Assembly: GCA_947499255.1 (NCBI GenBank)
Contig: CANMNF010000003.1
Location: 186,001-250,000, forward strand
Origin: an uncultured Sphingomonadaceae bacterium
Lineage (GTDB): Bacteria > Pseudomonadota > Alphaproteobacteria > Sphingomonadales > Sphingomonadaceae
Direction of reading: 5' to 3'
Length of the DNA stretch: 64,000 bases
In this document: positions 44,136 to 59,471 of the stretch, piece by piece
How the letters are laid out: each line of letters begins with the position of its first letter
How positions within the stretch are numbered: the first letter of the stretch is position 1
Program-made: the position numbers and the translations under genes
Notes under the pieces: model-generated
What the model saw: the letters and a program-made list of their open reading frames with translations, nothing else
The model's database searches: none
What the model was told of the DNA's origin: nothing

Positions 44136-44954
44136 ATGGTTGTAATCAATTCAAATATCAGTGCCTTGCGCGCCGCCAATGCGAGCATGCAGGCCGACAA
44201 AATGATGGGTGTAGCAATGGAGCGCCTGTCTACAGGCCGCCGGATCAATGGCGCGAAGGACGACGCTGCCGGCCTTGCTATTGCGACCCAGCAAACCGCC
44301 GATATCCGCGCGATCAATCAGGGCATTCGTAACGCGAATGACGGCATCGCTTTGGCGCAAACCGCTGAAGGCGCACTGGATGAAGTTTCCAACATGCTCC
44401 AACGTGTTCGCGAACTGGCAGTGCAATCCAGCACAGGGACATATTCCGATACCGAACGGGCTTACATGAACACCGAAGTGACCGAGCTGCAATCGCAGAT
44501 TGATGACATTCTCACCAACACAACGTTCAACGATGTGACCTTGTTCTCGACCACATCTGGCACCGATGTCGATTTCTCGATTGCGATTGATGCTACGCAA
44601 ACTGTGACGCTGACAAGCGCTGGCGTGGATGGCACGACTGTGTCCAGTTCAGCGCTTGATGTCTCCGGGGCCACGGCTGCCGGGACGACGATTACCAATG
44701 TCGATAGCGCGCTCGACAGCATCGCTTCAACCAGAGCCACTTTGGGCGCCGGGCAGAACCGTCTGGAATCAGCGATTTCGAACCTGACGACGCAATCAAC
44801 CAACCTTGCCGATGCACGGTCGCGGATCATGGATGCCGACTATTCGGCTGAGACGACCGCTCTTGCCAAGGCGCAAATCCTTGCTCAGGCATCCACCGCG
44901 ATGCTGGCGCAGGCGAATTTGAGCCAACAAAATGTCCTGTCGCTGCTGCGGTAA
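44136..44954 (+). CDS. fliC: Flagellin (short, 272 aa)
   Basis: MVVINSNISALRAANASMQADKMMGVAMERLSTGRRINGAKDDAAGLAIATQQTADIR...ARSRIMDADYSAETTALAKAQILAQASTAMLAQANLSQQNVLSLLR. Confidence 0.97.
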   Translation: MVVINSNISALRAANASMQADKMMGVAMERLSTGRRINGAKDDAAGLAIATQQTADIRAINQGIRNANDGIALAQTAEGALDEVSNMLQRVRELAVQSSTGTYSDTERAYMNTEVTELQSQIDDILTNTTFNDVTLFSTTSGTDVDFSIAIDATQTVTLTSAGVDGTTVSSSALDVSGATAAGTTITNVDSALDSIASTRATLGAGQNRLESAISNLTTQSTNLADARSRIMDADYSAETTALAKAQILAQASTAMLAQANLSQQNVLSLLR

Positions 44955-44975
44955 CCCTCGCCGGAGCGATAACGG

Positions 44976-45010
44976 GAAAGCCCGGAGCGTTGTCCACGCT
45001 CCGGGCTTTC
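44976..45010 (+). terminator. Rho-independent terminator of fliC
   Basis: Perfect 14-bp inverted repeat GAAAGCCCGGAGCG - TTGTCCA - CGCTCCGGGCTTTC followed by T-rich sequence. Confidence 0.85.
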
Positions 45011-45094
45011 TTTTGTTTTGGCTTTTGTTTTGGCTTTTGTTTTGGCTTTTGTTTTGGCTTTTGTTTTGGCTTTTGTTTTGGCTTTTGTTTTGGC
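45011..45094. repeat. 12-bp tandem repeat, seven perfect copies of TTTTGTTTTGGC
   Basis: Read directly: (ttttgttttggc)x7 = 84 bp. Confidence 0.97.
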
Positions 45095-45106
45095 ACCGAA
45101 GTTTTG

Positions 45107-47518
45107 TCAGGCAGCTTGCACATGTCGGGGCGCGATTTCAGCGGCCACTTCTTGGCGCAGCGCCGTCGGGCGGAAAGTGACCGCGACCAGCATCGGCTCA
45201 TCCACTTGCTGACCATCCGGCTCAATCACCAGCATCGCTTCTGGGCCATCGCATTGCAAAAGGCCCGGCGCAATTTCATCCATACCATCCAGCACCGGCT
45301 CCACCCGGCTGTGCAGGGTAGTATCGGCCTTCTCGCCTTTAAGGAAATGAGCGACCGGCATGGTCTCCACGCTGGCAAGCTCAATATGCGAATACATCCG
45401 GCCCACCGGCAGCGCGACTGTCATGGCGTTGGCACCGATCGGCAGCGCTGCGACATAAAATCCATCATGGGTTGGGCGCGCTTCGATGACGCTTTGCGAT
45501 GTTTCCTCCCCATCCAGGAATATGGCGGGCAAAGGCAGGCACTCCTCAGCAAAATCGGTATAGGTGAAGTCGAGCCCAAAGCGGCGCTGCGCAAACAGCG
45601 ACAGGCGAACGGACATATCCGTTTGCGATAGCTCGGCGGGCAGATACATCCGCTCTGACCCTTTCATGTAGAACAGCCCGCGCGTGCGCAGACCTGCCTG
45701 CGCAACCCTGTGATCGAAAAGCGGCACAGTGCGCTCACTGCCCAAATTCACATCATGCTCAAAATCGGCGATCACGCTGAGTTCGTCGGGCATGGGCAAG
45801 AACATCAGCCGCAGCAAAGCAGCGCTGGCCGCATCACGCCATTGCGGCAAATTATCGCGCGCACTCCCGCGTTTGGTCAGCGGGCCGCAAGCGGTGCGCA
45901 CAAAATCGAGCGCGCCGGCCTGCACCCCATCGCGCACCACGCTTTGGCGTTCTTTAATATCGTTGGCGCGGCGAATGGGCGTGCCATCCTCTTCATAATC
46001 CACGACAGAACCCATGCTGGCGGTACAAAGCTGTTCAAGCACCGCAACATTGGCGCACATCGCTTCGAGCAATTGCGGATCATGGGTTTGCGTTGAAAAC
46101 AGGCCGGTCTTGTCGAGGCCGGGACAGTCCTTTTCACGCAACAAAAGATAACGCCCCGCCACATGAACGCCGAGCCGATCTTGCAACAAGCCATCGATGC
46201 GGTTTTGCACCGTGCCGTTATAGCCCAGATCGACCAGCATCAAGACGTCGCCTGTTTGGGGATCACACAGCTTTTTGACATGCGCGATCAACCGGTCGGC
46301 AAAGGCACCCGCACGGCGCGCGAGTTGTTTCTGCCGTGTCCCGTGGCGGATATCAGACAACAGCGCATGGCTGGCCGTTTCCGGGCCATCCTCTTCCATC
46401 TTCAGCCGGGCGATTTCTTCTTGTGTAAACAAGACCTGCCGAGCCAAAGTTGGCGGGTTGAGGCCAAATTCGCGCTCCACATGGCGTTTGATCGCGCCGG
46501 GTTTGGCAAGGGCCGCAGCGGTGGCGGTGTATCGGCTGATTTCAGCGGCATGGCTGCTTTCCAGATCGCCACCGGACATGTGGTGCACTTCGCGCGGCAA
46601 ATGGCCATCGCGCATCAGAAACAGCCAATGAACTTTGCCGGCATGCTGCGTGGCCAAAGCCTTCGCCTCCTCTTGCAGCCAAAGCTCATAGGCATGAAAT
46701 AGCGGGCCCAGCGTTGTCAGCCCAAGCGCGTGGGCAGCATCGGCGCACTGCGGCTCTGCCACGGCCAAAGCGGCGCGGTGCGGCTGTGCGCCGTGCACCG
46801 TTTCAGCATGCGGGCCGCGCACCATGGCGGCCATGCTGGCCTCCAGACGAAGGCGTTTTTTGGCAGGCTTGGTGAATTGTTCCAGATGCAGAGCGGTGAT
46901 CCCGGCGCGTGTCGCGCCATCATAATCCGCCACCGGGTTATCGCCGATATGCAGGATGCTGTCAGGCGCCACTTTGAGCTTTTTGAGAACATCATCAAAC
47001 ATCCCTTCGGCTTTGGATCGGCCGATTTGGGAAGAGCAATAAACCCGGTCAATCAACCCTGCGACGTCGATCCCGGCAGCGCGCATGATGAGGCCGCGCA
47101 ATTGATCAACAGAGCAATAGGTGTCCGAGACGATCACCACCTGCAATCCGGCCGCTTTCGCAGCGCGCATCAGCTCCACCGTGGGCGCGAAGGCAAAGCA
47201 GTGTTCTGCTTCCAAGGCCAATTCCGCCGCAATCGCTTCCTCGCGCTCGCTTGGGGCGGCATTGGGCAGCAATTCGGCATAGATTTCTGTGAGGCAAACT
47301 TCGCCCCTTCCATGCCGATTGCGCGCAATCAAGCGCGCTTCGCCTTCGGCCTGAACGCGTTGTTGTAAAGTGCATAGTGGCAGCTGCGTAAAGACATGAA
47401 CGGGCGCATGGGTATCGCGCCATAACAGCGTATCAAAGCAATCCAGCGATAGGGTGGTGAGGCCCTCAAACCCCTCCAAAGCGCGCGGTAATTCGGCCGG
47501 TGTGATGGTGCGTGGCAT
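45107..47518 (-). CDS. Large HAD-superfamily-like protein (COG5610-like), 803 aa, in flagellar locus
   Basis: HAD motifs: LSLDCFDTLLWR, VVIVSDTYCS, IGRSKAEGMFDDVLKKL, ILHIGDNPVADYDGA; long uncharacterised C-terminal region. Confidence 0.75.
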   Translation of the reverse strand: MPRTITPAELPRALEGFEGLTTLSLDCFDTLLWRDTHAPVHVFTQLPLCTLQQRVQAEGEARLIARNRHGRGEVCLTEIYAELLPNAAPSEREEAIAAELALEAEHCFAFAPTVELMRAAKAAGLQVVIVSDTYCSVDQLRGLIMRAAGIDVAGLIDRVYCSSQIGRSKAEGMFDDVLKKLKVAPDSILHIGDNPVADYDGATRAGITALHLEQFTKPAKKRLRLEASMAAMVRGPHAETVHGAQPHRAALAVAEPQCADAAHALGLTTLGPLFHAYELWLQEEAKALATQHAGKVHWLFLMRDGHLPREVHHMSGGDLESSHAAEISRYTATAAALAKPGAIKRHVEREFGLNPPTLARQVLFTQEEIARLKMEEDGPETASHALLSDIRHGTRQKQLARRAGAFADRLIAHVKKLCDPQTGDVLMLVDLGYNGTVQNRIDGLLQDRLGVHVAGRYLLLREKDCPGLDKTGLFSTQTHDPQLLEAMCANVAVLEQLCTASMGSVVDYEEDGTPIRRANDIKERQSVVRDGVQAGALDFVRTACGPLTKRGSARDNLPQWRDAASAALLRLMFLPMPDELSVIADFEHDVNLGSERTVPLFDHRVAQAGLRTRGLFYMKGSERMYLPAELSQTDMSVRLSLFAQRRFGLDFTYTDFAEECLPLPAIFLDGEETSQSVIEARPTHDGFYVAALPIGANAMTVALPVGRMYSHIELASVETMPVAHFLKGEKADTTLHSRVEPVLDGMDEIAPGLLQCDGPEAMLVIEPDGQQVDEPMLVAVTFRPTALRQEVAAEIAPRHVQAA

Positions 47519-47625
47519 AGCAGCGGTACCCTTTATAAAATGATGGGCGCTGGAATATGCAGCTATGGTCAATAGGCACTGAGCATAAGGATAAGGGTTG
47601 GCGCGTAGAATGGCGCGCGGTCCTG

Positions 47626-48510
47626 TTAACGGAGCGCTTCGCCTGCGGGATTAAGCGTGATCGACATACGGCGATTGCGCGGATCTTCGGGATTGTCTGC
47701 GATCAAAGGTTCACGGTCAGCCACGCCTTCGATGCGGTGAATGCGGTCCACCGGAATGGAGTGACGCATCAATTCCTGCCGGGTGGCTTCTGCACGGCCC
47801 GCCGATAGCGACCAATTGTTTGCCACAACGCCGGGGCGCCAGGGCAAGGCATCGGTATGGCCGCGAATGGTGATTTCTTCATCGCCTTCCTCAATCACTT
47901 CGCTAACCAGTTCTAGCAGATCGCGCGCATCGGCTTGCAACACCGTAGTGCCCAGCGAAAACATTGAGAAATCAGCATCATCGATCAAATCAATGCGCAC
48001 GCCGCGCGTGGTGTTCATCACCCGCACCTGACGCGCAAGGCGATGCAGGCTGCGCGATTGTGCGAGCTTTTCGTCAATGCGCTGTTTTAGCTCTTCAGCG
48101 CGCCGGGTTTTGGTTGAAGCCACTGTGCCCTCGCGCGGACCGCCTGTTGCATCGCGTGGAATGGTAATAGACTTTGTACCGGTTTGGCCTGCAGCATTGG
48201 GGTAATTATCCACATCGGTTATCGATGATCCGCCCAGCAATCCATCAGCGCCCGCACTGCCTGCGCGCATTTTGACCAGCGTTGGGGTGAAGTGATCGGC
48301 AATGCCTTTGCGCTGATCCTCTGTGGTTGCGCCCAGCAGCCATAGCATCAGGAAGAACGCCATCATCGCAGTCACAAAGTCGGCATAGGCCACTTTCCAC
48401 GCGCCGCCATGATGCCCGTCGCCGCCCGACACGATGACTTTCTTGACGATGATCGGGCGCGGCTGTTCCTCGACCAGATCATCATCGCGCGCTTGCGCGG
48501 AGCTGGCCAC
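47626..48510 (-). CDS. motB: Flagellar motor protein MotB (OmpA-like C-terminus)
   Basis: GGAWKVAYADFVTAMMAFFLMLWLLG; ITIRGHTDALPWRPGVVANNWSLSAGRAEATRQEL. Confidence 0.95.
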   Translation of the reverse strand: MASSAQARDDDLVEEQPRPIIVKKVIVSGGDGHHGGAWKVAYADFVTAMMAFFLMLWLLGATTEDQRKGIADHFTPTLVKMRAGSAGADGLLGGSSITDVDNYPNAAGQTGTKSITIPRDATGGPREGTVASTKTRRAEELKQRIDEKLAQSRSLHRLARQVRVMNTTRGVRIDLIDDADFSMFSLGTTVLQADARDLLELVSEVIEEGDEEITIRGHTDALPWRPGVVANNWSLSAGRAEATRQELMRHSIPVDRIHRIEGVADREPLIADNPEDPRNRRMSITLNPAGEALR

Positions 48511-48511
48511 G

Positions 48512-49375
48512 TTACTTGCCTTTCAAATCGTCAAGCAGCTGGATCAAAGGTGGACGGATCGTATGCGGCAGGCCCGAACGCGCGCTTTCCACGGCCAGCG
48601 CATGGGGATAGCCATGCAGGCTGGCGATCAGCACTTGTTTGACCGAATGAAAGATCTTGGCGTCCTCCTCATTGATCTGTTTGAGCCGTCCGGCCAGCGG
48701 ACCCACCGCGCCATAAGCCAGCAGCACGCCCAAAAACGTCCCCACCAAAGCCGCACCGATCATTTTGCCCAGAACCTCAGGCGGTTCATCGATTGAACCC
48801 ATCGTTTTCACAATGCCCAAAACGGCCGCCACAATGCCCAATGCAGGCAACGCATCGGCAAGGTTCTGGATCGCATGTGCGGGCTCTTCCATCTCGTGCA
48901 GATTGGATTTGATGGCGTTATCCATGATTTCCTCGATCGCATGCGTTTCCAGCGAACCGGATGAGACGACCATCAAAGTCAGCGTGTCGCAGATAAGCGA
49001 GGTGACCTCGTGGCTTTTGAGGATGCCGGGATATTCGGCAAAAACAGCTGAACCATTGGGGTCCATCACATGCATTTCCAGCGCCACGGGGCCTTCTGTT
49101 TTGAGGATGCGCATCAGTTTCCCGACCAGGGCAATCGCGGCCACATGATCATCGGCTGAATAGCGTGGTCCTTTAAAAATACGCGCAAATCCGCCGCCAA
49201 GCGCTTTAAGGTGATGGGGCGAATTGCCTGCCACCAGTGACGCGATGGCGGCCCCGCCAATAATCATCATTTCGATAGGCATGGCCGCAAAAACCGGCCC
49301 CAACGCGCCGCCAGATAGCGCAAAGCCCCCGAATACGAGGACGAATAGAAGCACAAGACCGATTGCGGGAAACAT
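48512..49375 (-). CDS. motA: Flagellar motor stator protein MotA
   Basis: LPALGIVAAVLGIVKTMGSIDEPPEVLGKMIGAALVGTFLGVLLAYGAVGPLAGRLKQ. Confidence 0.95.
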   Translation of the reverse strand: MFPAIGLVLLFVLVFGGFALSGGALGPVFAAMPIEMMIIGGAAIASLVAGNSPHHLKALGGGFARIFKGPRYSADDHVAAIALVGKLMRILKTEGPVALEMHVMDPNGSAVFAEYPGILKSHEVTSLICDTLTLMVVSSGSLETHAIEEIMDNAIKSNLHEMEEPAHAIQNLADALPALGIVAAVLGIVKTMGSIDEPPEVLGKMIGAALVGTFLGVLLAYGAVGPLAGRLKQINEEDAKIFHSVKQVLIASLHGYPHALAVESARSGLPHTIRPPLIQLLDDLKGK

Positions 49376-53824: not shown

Positions 53825-53844
53825 TTGGGTTCTCACGCAATTGG

Positions 53845-53934
53845 GCCTCACAGGATCAGGCCTCACAGGATCAGGCCTCACAGGATCAGGCCTCACAGGA
53901 TCAGGCCTCATAAGGTCTGGCTTCACAGGGTCTG
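53845..53934. repeat. 15-bp tandem repeat (GCCTCACAGGATCAG), four perfect plus two degenerate copies, spanning flgG 3' end and flgG-flgH gap
   Basis: Units at 53845, 53860, 53875, 53890 identical; 53905 gcctcataaggtctg; 53920 gcttcacagggtctg overlaps flgG stop. Confidence 0.93.
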
Positions 53935-57149: not shown

Positions 57150-57497
57150 TTATTGGCCTTTCAACGCGCGGCTCAGCGTGTCGCTGCGGCCCTTGATGAA
57201 AGACAAAGTGGCGGAATAGCCCACGGCATTTTCGGCAAAGGCCATCTGTTCGGTGGACAGCTCGACCGTATTGCCATCCATACTGGGCATGACGGGAACG
57301 CGGTACAAAGTGGCGTTATCAATCGCACCCTGGCGCGAGGAGCCGTTTTCGCGGGCGGCAAGCGCGCTGGCGAAATCGATGTCCTTGGCTTTGTATCCCG
57401 GCGTTGCGGCATTGGCGATGTTGGATGCGATCAGGCCCATGCGCTGAGAACGCAGTTCAAGCGCGCTGGCGTGGATGCCAAAAATGCTGTCGCTCAT
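57150..57497 (-). CDS. flgB: Flagellar basal-body rod protein FlgB
   Basis: IFGIHASALELRSQRMGLIASNIANAATPGYKAKDIDFASAL. Confidence 0.92.
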   Translation of the reverse strand: MSDSIFGIHASALELRSQRMGLIASNIANAATPGYKAKDIDFASALAARENGSSRQGAIDNATLYRVPVMPSMDGNTVELSTEQMAFAENAVGYSATLSFIKGRSDTLSRALKGQ

Positions 57498-57539: not shown

Positions 57540-57555
57540 GCAAGCGCCGTGCCAA
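57540..57555 (-). promoter_or_regulatory. Sigma54 (RpoN) promoter upstream of flgB
   Basis: Minus strand TTGGCACG-GCGC-TTGC, GG-N10-GC spacing exact, ~43 nt from flgB start. Confidence 0.85.
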
Positions 57556-57733
57556 TTTGCCGCTCCCAAGGCGGGCTAGGTATTCATACAGATGGGCAGC
57601 AGACGGAACGGCAGCGCGCGGCAGGAGCGGGCGGCAGGGGCAGGCGGCAGCGACTTGCCGGTGCGGCAGGCATTTGCCGGGGTGAAAGCAGCGCGCGTCG
57701 CGCCGTTCTATGGCCTGAGGAAAGGCAGCTGGC

Positions 57734-58405
57734 ATGGAATGGACATATCTGTGGGATACGACAAGCGCGTGCGTGGTGCTGGGCGGAACGCTTCTGGCGA
57801 CAGTGCTGCGTAGCGGGGTGAGCGATCTGGGGCAGACGCTGGCGGCGCTGGCATCACTGGCGCACCCCCCTTTCGATATGCTCAAAGCGCGCAGCGAAAT
57901 CGCAGGGCAGGTGCGCGCTATTCGCCGCGATGGCATTCGGCTGGCAGAACCTGCTCACCCCAGCGATGCCGAGATGGCGGAGACGGCCGATGCGCTGGCC
58001 TATCGCGGATCGTTAGCTGCCGCGATGGAGGCGCATGATCGCCATGCAAGCAAGCGCGATCGACGCCGTGTCGCGGCGTTGGCGACTTTGATGCAGATGG
58101 GCGAGCTGGCTCCGGTGTTCGGGCTGGCCGGAACGCTGCTGGCGCTGGCCCAATTGCCGGGCGGCGAGGTGATGGCGCGCGATTTGCTCGGCGCGGTTTC
58201 GATTGCTGTGCTCAGCACGCTTTACGGATTGCTGCTGGCGCATCTTGTCATCATGCCATTGGCGCGCAAAATTGAACGGCGCGGAGAAGCCGAAGAACGC
58301 GCGCGCGAAGAATTGCTGCAATGGCTGCATGATCAATTGCACCGCGATGGCCCGCGCGGCAAAGGCTCCAAACTGCATTCGGTTGGTCCGGAAGCAGCGG
58401 CATGA
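57734..58405 (+). CDS. PomA/MotA/ExbB-like proton-channel protein (second, divergent stator-type subunit)
   Basis: LMQMGELAPVFGLAGTLLALAQLPGGEVMARDLLGAVSIAVLSTLYGLLLAHLVIMPLARKIERRGEAEERA. Confidence 0.75.
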   Translation: MEWTYLWDTTSACVVLGGTLLATVLRSGVSDLGQTLAALASLAHPPFDMLKARSEIAGQVRAIRRDGIRLAEPAHPSDAEMAETADALAYRGSLAAAMEAHDRHASKRDRRRVAALATLMQMGELAPVFGLAGTLLALAQLPGGEVMARDLLGAVSIAVLSTLYGLLLAHLVIMPLARKIERRGEAEERAREELLQWLHDQLHRDGPRGKGSKLHSVGPEAAA

Positions 58406-58833
58406 TCACGCGCGCTGCGCCCACATGGCAATTGCTGTTGGCAGACCTTTCCCTGATTTTGTTTATCGCCACCGCAGGCGCGCTAGCCCATGCCGAAGAG
58501 GCAGCGCAGGAGCCTTCCCTGAATGGCGCACTGACTCATGGCGGATTGGCCAGCGGTTCTCCCTTGGCCGTATTGCGCGGGGAAGGGAGTGCGCGCGATG
58601 CAGCGCTGCTGGGCCAGTGGCTGCGCGATTATCAACCCGATCCGCGTGAGCAATTGACGCTCACCTTGCGCTATCGCCCGCAGGATTTCGCGTCGGCACA
58701 GTCCCGCGCACAGGCACTAAGAGACCGCGCGCGAGAGGCCGGGCAGGTGCCGCGTATTGTGCTGGAAGAAGGCGCGACTTCTGCACTCCATGCCAGCTTC
58801 GCCTTTGATCACGCACCCGAAATGGCACGGTAA
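58402..58833 (+). CDS. Small single-TM MotB/ExbD/TolR-like partner (143 aa) with TM aspartate
   Basis: ATGA overlap with upstream MotA-like gene; TWQLLLADLSLILFIATAGALA (Asp15); short alpha/beta C-terminal region lacking a GHTD-type motif. Confidence 0.6.
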   Translation: MITRAAPTWQLLLADLSLILFIATAGALAHAEEAAQEPSLNGALTHGGLASGSPLAVLRGEGSARDAALLGQWLRDYQPDPREQLTLTLRYRPQDFASAQSRAQALRDRAREAGQVPRIVLEEGATSALHASFAFDHAPEMAR

Positions 58834-58891
58834 TTGCTACCCCATCAGATGACCCAGCGTGGCCGCGCCACCTGCCAATAGGAGTGTCTTG

Positions 58892-59434
58892 ATGCCGATG
58901 TCCCGCCAATGTTCCCTCCTCGCGCTGTGCGTTTGCGCAGCGTTGAGCTTTACTGTGGCCAGCCCTGCCAAAGCAGAGCCAGCCTTTGCCGATCACGCGG
59001 CCATTGATACCGCCGTCCAAGCTTTTACCGGCGCGCCTGTGGGCGCAATTGGCGGCGCGCGCGCAGGCGTTGATCGGCGTTTGCGTCTTGCCCCATGCAG
59101 CGGTGATCTGGTGCTGGGCTTTCATGGCAACCGTGTCGACATGCTCACCGTTGCCTGTCCAGATCCAGGCAGTTGGCGCATCTTTGTGGCGTTGAACACG
59201 GCCACGGGCACTGCCCCGCGCCAAGCGCGCGCTGAGCAGTCTATCGATATCGTTGCACGCGGCGATATGGTCAGCATCATTGTCGAAGGCCCCGGCTTTA
59301 GCGTTCAGCAATCTGGCGAAGCGATGGAAGCAGGCGCGCAAGGCGAATGGATCCGCGTGCGGCCCAGCGGCACGCGTGACACGCTGCGCGCCCACATCGA
59401 ACAGCCCGGCCGCGTGGTTATTTCAAGGAATTAG
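58892..59434 (+). CDS. flgA: Flagellar P-ring formation protein FlgA
   Basis: Signal peptide; RLRLAPCSGDLVL; ARAEQSIDIVARGDMVSIIVEGPGFSVQQSGEAMEAGAQGEWIRVR. Confidence 0.85.
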   Translation: MPMSRQCSLLALCVCAALSFTVASPAKAEPAFADHAAIDTAVQAFTGAPVGAIGGARAGVDRRLRLAPCSGDLVLGFHGNRVDMLTVACPDPGSWRIFVALNTATGTAPRQARAEQSIDIVARGDMVSIIVEGPGFSVQQSGEAMEAGAQGEWIRVRPSGTRDTLRAHIEQPGRVVISRN

Positions 59435-59445
59435 CGCATGGCCCT

Positions 59446-59471
59446 TAAACCATCTGCAACCATGCCGTTCT
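59446..59471 (+). promoter_or_regulatory. Weak sigma28-like promoter upstream of flgM
   Basis: TAAA-N14-GCCGTTCT versus TAAA-N15-GCCGATAA. Confidence 0.3.

Follow-up and report, generated by a model that had tools for sequence, protein, structure and literature searches.

The described systems closest to the locus analyzed here are the flagellar stators MotA/MotB and PomA/PomB, the ExbB/ExbD and TolQ/TolR pairs, and the gliding motors GldL/GldM and AglR/Q/S. Stators are thought to need both a cell-wall anchor and a plug. Criteria for the flagellar stator (FIT) class, to which MotAB and PomAB belong, were taken from PMC12505986, and the stator residues that contact FliG are R88 and E96 in PomA and R90 and E98 in MotA (PMC7564593). 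For the gliding motors, GldM binds no peptidoglycan (PMC9389320).

The window analyzed here (64,000 nucleotides of DNA from an uncultured Sphingomonadaceae bacterium) contains a flagellar cluster in which two genes, called miniA and miniB below, lie between flgB and flgA (Table 1). A first-pass annotation of this DNA had described two overlapping plus-strand genes at this site in addition to an ordinary motAB pair; its coordinates for both open reading frames and for their ATGA overlap were reproduced, and the ordinary pair (47626-49375) gives Pfam matches to MotA_N, MotB_plug and OmpA and coexists with miniAB in one cluster. The -4 spacing at the miniA/miniB overlap is kept in nearly all homologous loci, across which the gene order miniA-miniB-flgA-flgM is conserved as well; miniAB and flgA are probably in one operon.

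Table 1. Positions of the miniAB genes, of neighbouring and comparison genes, and of promoter-like motifs in the window.
Feature	Position	Strand	Remarks
miniA	57734-58405	+	223 aa; PomA/MotA-type channel subunit without TM1, three predicted TM segments
miniB	58402-58833	+	143-aa mini-MotB; one TM with Trp9/Asp15, ~25-aa coil, small periplasmic domain
ATGA overlap	58402-58405	+	miniA stop coupled to miniB start
flgA (P-ring chaperone)	58859-59434	+	next gene, same orientation; 25-nt gap from miniB
flgB	57150-57497	-	head of divergent flgB-L/motAB run
canonical MotA (comparison)	48512-49375	-	TIGR03818 2.9e-94
canonical MotB (comparison)	47626-48510	-	plug PF13677 and OmpA peptidoglycan-binding PF00691
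sigma-28 (FliA)-like motif TGAA-N15-GCCGTTCT	57683-57709	+	upstream of miniA
FliA-type promoter motif TTAAACCATCTGCAACCATGCCGTTCT	59446-59471	+	before flgM; same motif as miniA
near-perfect sigma-54 motif TTGGCACGGCGCTTGCTG	57549-57575	-	flgB operon; 0-1 mismatches in 112/120 homologous intergenic regions

MiniA matches the Pfam family MotA_ExbB (PF01618, E 1.2e-10), and a profile of 19 miniA relatives, compared with solved structures, aligns with residues 28-225 of Vibrio PomA at 5e-20 and also matches MotA at 1e-15. The homology begins at PomA residue 28, that is, at TM2, and PomA TM1 is absent; since a stop codon lies in frame 5 codons ahead of the miniA ATG, TM1 cannot be encoded there and simply have escaped annotation. 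Without TM1, miniA does not have the four-helix (square fold) membrane domain of flagellar stator A subunits. The earlier description of a protein that ends in a PomA/MotA-like region therefore holds as to kinship and needs correction as to extent, since the whole protein, starting at PomA TM2, and not its end alone, is PomA/MotA-like. An AF2 model of miniA (pLDDT 87) has PomA as its best Foldseek match (TM-score 0.79, rmsd 2.3, E 6.5e-7), so that the check for a MotA fold came out positive; the top matches are all PomA/MotA, with ExbB/TolQ far behind (E 1e-2, TM-score at most about 0.5). An ExbB/TolQ-type identity of miniA was rejected because PomA/MotA is clearly closer by profile and by fold, and genuine TolQ/ExbB-like genes are present separately elsewhere in the genome. 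In the model three separate cytoplasmic helices (residues 29-41, 49-66 and 79-91) and a continuous helix (94-139) are predicted; in FIT stators the cytoplasmic (torque) domain is expanded to four or more helices and TM3 is unbroken.

The channel residues of miniA are strongly conserved. In a set of 119 A proteins Pro175, Gly133 and Thr134 are found in 119/119 and Pro127 in 116/119; Gly165 of A is invariant too. Where residues are assigned roles by PomA number, the numbering comes from the miniA-PomA alignment and the roles from established knowledge. The FliG-contact positions are variable in the window's clade (Arg in 62/110, acidic in 36/110), in which a new signature D66-G67-x-x-R70 occupies the contact region; the window's own miniA happens to carry R64 and E72 at these positions, and in a more divergent Sphingomonas type of the pair, described below, 9/9 A proteins are acidic where PomA has E96.

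MiniB has, at residues 11-29, the single TM segment with an internal Asp15 that had been ascribed to it. This Asp is invariant in all 158 distinct homologues (110/110 in the clade and 48/48 of the Sphingomonas type), and Trp9 of the TM is invariant as well. Pfam, NCBIfam and PADLOC gave no family match for miniB, and a miniB profile compared with PDB sequences gave nothing significant. An AF2 model predicts a TM helix, a coil and then alpha-beta-alpha-beta-beta, which is an OmpA-like topology. The ~110 residues said to lack a GHTD-type motif do lack it, the OmpA-type peptidoglycan-binding motif (HTD...R) being missing from miniB throughout the clade, but with this predicted topology they are not featureless. 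Foldseek comparison of miniB with the PDB gives weak matches, OmpA-like structures leading (SiiA, OprF and H. pylori MotB; E 2e-3 to 5e-2), and because these are weak the OmpA origin of miniB is based instead on a chain of hhalign profile comparisons. In that chain the OmpA domain of canonical MotB matches the Sphingomonas-type mini-MotB (E 3.4e-8), which in turn matches miniB of the window's clade (E 2.7e-6); compared directly with MotB, the latter matches in the TM helix alone, with no match to the periplasmic part.

The Sphingomonas-type pair that provides the middle link (loci L141-L155 and L178-L227) occupies the same flgB-flgA site with the same overlap, and combines an A subunit without TM1 with a B subunit of 147-218 aa that has the invariant Asp; it is intermediate between MotB and the window's miniB in that Pfam OmpA is still matched in 7/9 and MotB_plug in 6/9. 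Among 19 sampled miniB proteins of the window's clade, Pfam OmpA is matched in 0/19 and MotB_plug gives two weak matches (best E 0.069); the window's own miniB has no MotB_plug match and, in its model, a coil after the TM. Judged from these profiles, the proteins are a graded series, from MotB (plug, linker and GHTD motif) by way of a short MotB (plug and altered OmpA domain) to a miniB that would retain the fold only. MiniB is thus read as a degenerate MotB/OmpA protein which, in the Erythrobacteraceae/Novosphingobium clade that includes the window, is without plug, linker and peptidoglycan-binding residues. The hhalign chain accordingly bears out the MotB half of the earlier label "MotB/ExbD-like partner" and not the ExbD half.

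A scan of genome contigs with the window protein as single query gave no matches, and with an alignment as query instead 340 relatives were obtained. Within the genus, the pair is found at the same locus in 19 genomes, that of the window among them, arranged flgD-C-B / miniA-miniB-flgA-flgM. The miniB profile matches 84/401 genomes of the order (5 further weak partial matches being left out of this count), all of them in one family (f1, Sphingomonadaceae-type). All 84 genomes with window-type miniB are FlhA+, and in the 15 genera with miniB only 6 FlhA+ genomes are without it (three with weak or partial FlhA matches, three with other-type FlhA). The remaining FlhA+ genomes of the family have the Sphingomonas-type pair at the same locus in 80/125 cases, called by a strong miniA match with E below 1e-59, from which canonical MotA is clearly apart at E 1e-16 to 1e-8; the total is 164/215 sampled FlhA+ genomes of the family. 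Named relatives are mainly Novosphingobium and Erythrobacteraceae, and among 289 Alphaproteobacteria genomes clade miniB was found in this family only, besides two matches that were both weak and partial (E 3e-5 and 6e-3). The pair is therefore a family-wide feature of Sphingomonadaceae, which the first-pass annotation had missed. The conservation check that it had proposed, once run, found the pair in well over 100 genomes with the same order, the 4-nt overlap and Asp15, and its suggestion of a flagellum-dedicated system agrees with the occurrence of the pair in FlhA+ genomes only.

Several flagellated genera (g26, g39, g50 and others) are without the pair, which is thus dispensable for building a flagellum. 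One genome (G197, locus L152) has a degenerate miniA alone between flgB and flgA, with no miniB, and represents a case of loss. Another (G339, loci L168 and L177), with miniB and no MotB, was considered as a natural experiment and dropped because its cluster is broken inside flgG: flgH to motAB are gone while miniAB, flgA and flhA remain, which is a flagellum being lost. A large flagellar cluster including miniAB lies at 65140-95682 of a 270-kb plasmid of Qipengyuania citrea (NZ_CP098495.1; L176). In this record, the sole RefSeq plasmid record examined, A is annotated as 'MotA/TolQ/ExbB proton channel family protein' and B as 'hypothetical protein'. No published description of the pair was found in the open-access literature (most subscription papers being outside this scope), and it appears to be undescribed so far.

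Pairwise comparison of 36 pairs, among which one genome pair is counted twice under two locus ids, gave dN/dS values of 0.08-0.31 for miniA genes and 0.11-0.43 for miniB genes; such low values point to purifying selection on both genes and not to decay. In a tree of A subunits the members of the window's clade fall together (100/100), and to them three Sphingomonas (g23/g67) rows are adjacent (85/80), and a single mini clade separate from MotA, PomA-like and TolQ/ExbB proteins is not rejected (p-AU 0.615); a single origin of the mini pairs is thus allowed by the sequences, not proven. PomA-like genes located by flhA in other families were rejected as ancestors, since they have TM1, a sigma-54 regulator as neighbour and no MotB, and form a group of their own. 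In such loci of other families of the order (L157-L160) a full-length PomA-like gene lies between hook genes and an FlbD-like sigma-54 regulator, before flhA.

The motif upstream of miniA has the conserved form TGAA/TTAA-N14-15-GCCGTTCT across loci. The full sigma-28-like motif is found before miniA in 65/130 loci and before flgM in 68/108, and before every other flagellar gene tested in 0-1 loci. The flgM gene is a classic sigma-28 (FliA) target; since miniA has its motif in common with flgM, the pair, and probably flgA too, look like late genes, and the shared FliA-type motif may define the sigma-28 consensus of the family. Control of miniAB by sigma-54 was rejected, because the motif in the shared intergenic region points to flgB and none reading towards miniA was found in the 120 homologous intergenic regions.

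Compared with the known systems, miniAB is like PomA/PomB and MotA/MotB in the fold and channel residues of A, in the Asp of the B helix, in being an overlapping gene pair within a flagellar cluster, and in its putative sigma-28-like control. Unlike them, miniA has no TM1 and no conserved FliG-contact charges, miniB has half the length and no plug, linker or peptidoglycan-binding motif, and an ordinary motAB is present besides. With ExbB/ExbD and TolQ/TolR (the GIT class) it shares an A with three TM segments and a ~140-aa B in which a single Asp lies in the TM and the periplasmic domain is small; however, miniA is PomA-like by profile and fold, with an intact TM3 helix and three cytoplasmic helices predicted, the miniB remnant would derive from an OmpA domain, and the locus is flagellar. 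Like the gliding motors GldL/GldM and AglR/Q/S, it would be a 5:2-type motor re-used for a motility task, but it has no sequence relation to GldLM and no large periplasmic shaft, and it belongs to other machines and phyla. The defence system Zorya was set aside, as PADLOC gave no match to ZorA or ZorB and the locus is flagellar and not a defence neighbourhood. The proposal of an additional MotA/MotB-type ion-channel pair stands, given the MotA fold, the invariant channel Asp and the absence of a working peptidoglycan-binding motif. A 5:2 stoichiometry is presumed by homology to stators. The pair would work most like a stator-derived accessory unit, filed neither with ExbBD/TolQR nor with the flagellar stators, the latter because TM1, plug and peptidoglycan binding are missing although the homology and the ion path are there.

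The interpretation favored here, at about even confidence, is that miniAB is a flagellum-dedicated, late-expressed, ion-driven accessory motor unit of the 5:2 type that has lost cell-wall anchoring. It is based on the PomA/MotA homology, the retained channel residues, the restriction to FlhA+ genomes, the flgB-flgA site, the selection on both genes, the promoter motif and the presence of motAB alongside. The pair would have originated as an old second MotA/MotB-type pair of Sphingomonadaceae that was reduced stepwise. It would be made late, once the hook is finished, with five A subunits arranged around a B dimer and ion flow past Asp15 driving turning or switching; docking at the basal body would be through proteins contacted by the B remnant and by the altered cytoplasmic face of A, and not through the cell wall. 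MiniAB would add to or modulate the motor run by ordinary MotAB and not replace MotAB. Against this interpretation, the FliG-contact charges are variable in the clade, no structure is known against which a unit lacking a cell-wall anchor could push, the pair is absent from some flagellated genera, and the promoter motif is found in only about half of the loci. It is proposed tentatively, as a possibility below even confidence, that miniAB is a second, family-wide flagellar motor with no cell-wall grip, an accessory 5:2 unit docked at the basal body that does work other than ordinary stator torque, such as driving a periplasmic component of the motor.

The variable FliG-contact charges that count against the accessory unit would be expected of a periplasmic energizer resembling ExbBD, TolQR or GldLM, in which ion flow moves a periplasmic domain acting on an envelope part (for example the P-ring/FlgA-FlgI, or another ring of the basal body) and not on FliG. 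The ExbD/TolR-like size of B (143 aa), its lack of a working cell-wall anchor, the position of flgA next after the pair nearly everywhere, and the precedent of non-anchored 5:2 motors such as GldLM (PMC9389320) also fit. This explanation is nevertheless rather unlikely: A is PomA/MotA-like and not ExbB/TolQ-like, sigma-28-like control implies late expression whereas the P-ring is normally built earlier, flagellated relatives without the pair exist, and the flgA neighborhood may be chance inheritance. The main idea of the first-pass annotation was an alternative stator; as such the pair would generate torque and replace or be replaced by MotAB at FliG, with a scaffold protein of the periplasm as its anchor in place of peptidoglycan. 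Partial support comes from the PomA fold including its cytoplasmic domain, from the acidic residue that the Sphingomonas-type proteins keep in place of PomA E96, and from the scaffold-anchored stators known in polar motors (PMC7990780). In the window's clade, however, TM1, plug and linker are gone, as are the peptidoglycan-binding residues and the conservation of the charges facing FliG, and the idea is improbable for the pair in the window.

Retention of the core channel residues while mechanical parts were lost, and loss of the plug, would also suit a role in regulation or sensing, in which the pair would conduct ions or sense load so as to adjust the assembly of MotAB or the energy of the membrane and would do no work; as nothing specific points to sensing and an ungated channel would be costly, little credence is given to this role. 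Least credible of all is that a second stator pair has lost its function and is decaying. Parts have been lost stepwise, and G197 retains only its degenerate A gene, but the low dN/dS values, the invariant Asp15, the translational overlap, the conserved promoter motif and the intact state of the pair in more than 160 genomes all argue against decay.

A second stator-like pair has thus been kept under selection in this lineage while anchor and plug were lost. With forms intermediate between an ordinary MotB and the stripped protein alive today, the lineage offers a natural dissection of the stator parts that ion-driven motion requires, and miniAB is a concrete, easily deleted pair with which to ask if an unanchored 5:2 motor can serve a flagellum.

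Two tandem repeats were also observed in the window. At 53844-53929 a 15-bp repeat (MRPDPVRPDPVRP..., 5.7 copies) lies where the 5' end of flgH is annotated; as the lipoprotein signal begins only past the repeat (MPFSIKRALF), the true flgH start is probably internal. At 45010-45094, CTTTTGTTTTGG is present as seven perfect 12-bp tandem repeats within a minus-strand open reading frame (44827-45225, KPKQ repeats), just past the end of a HAD-like open reading frame (45107-47572).
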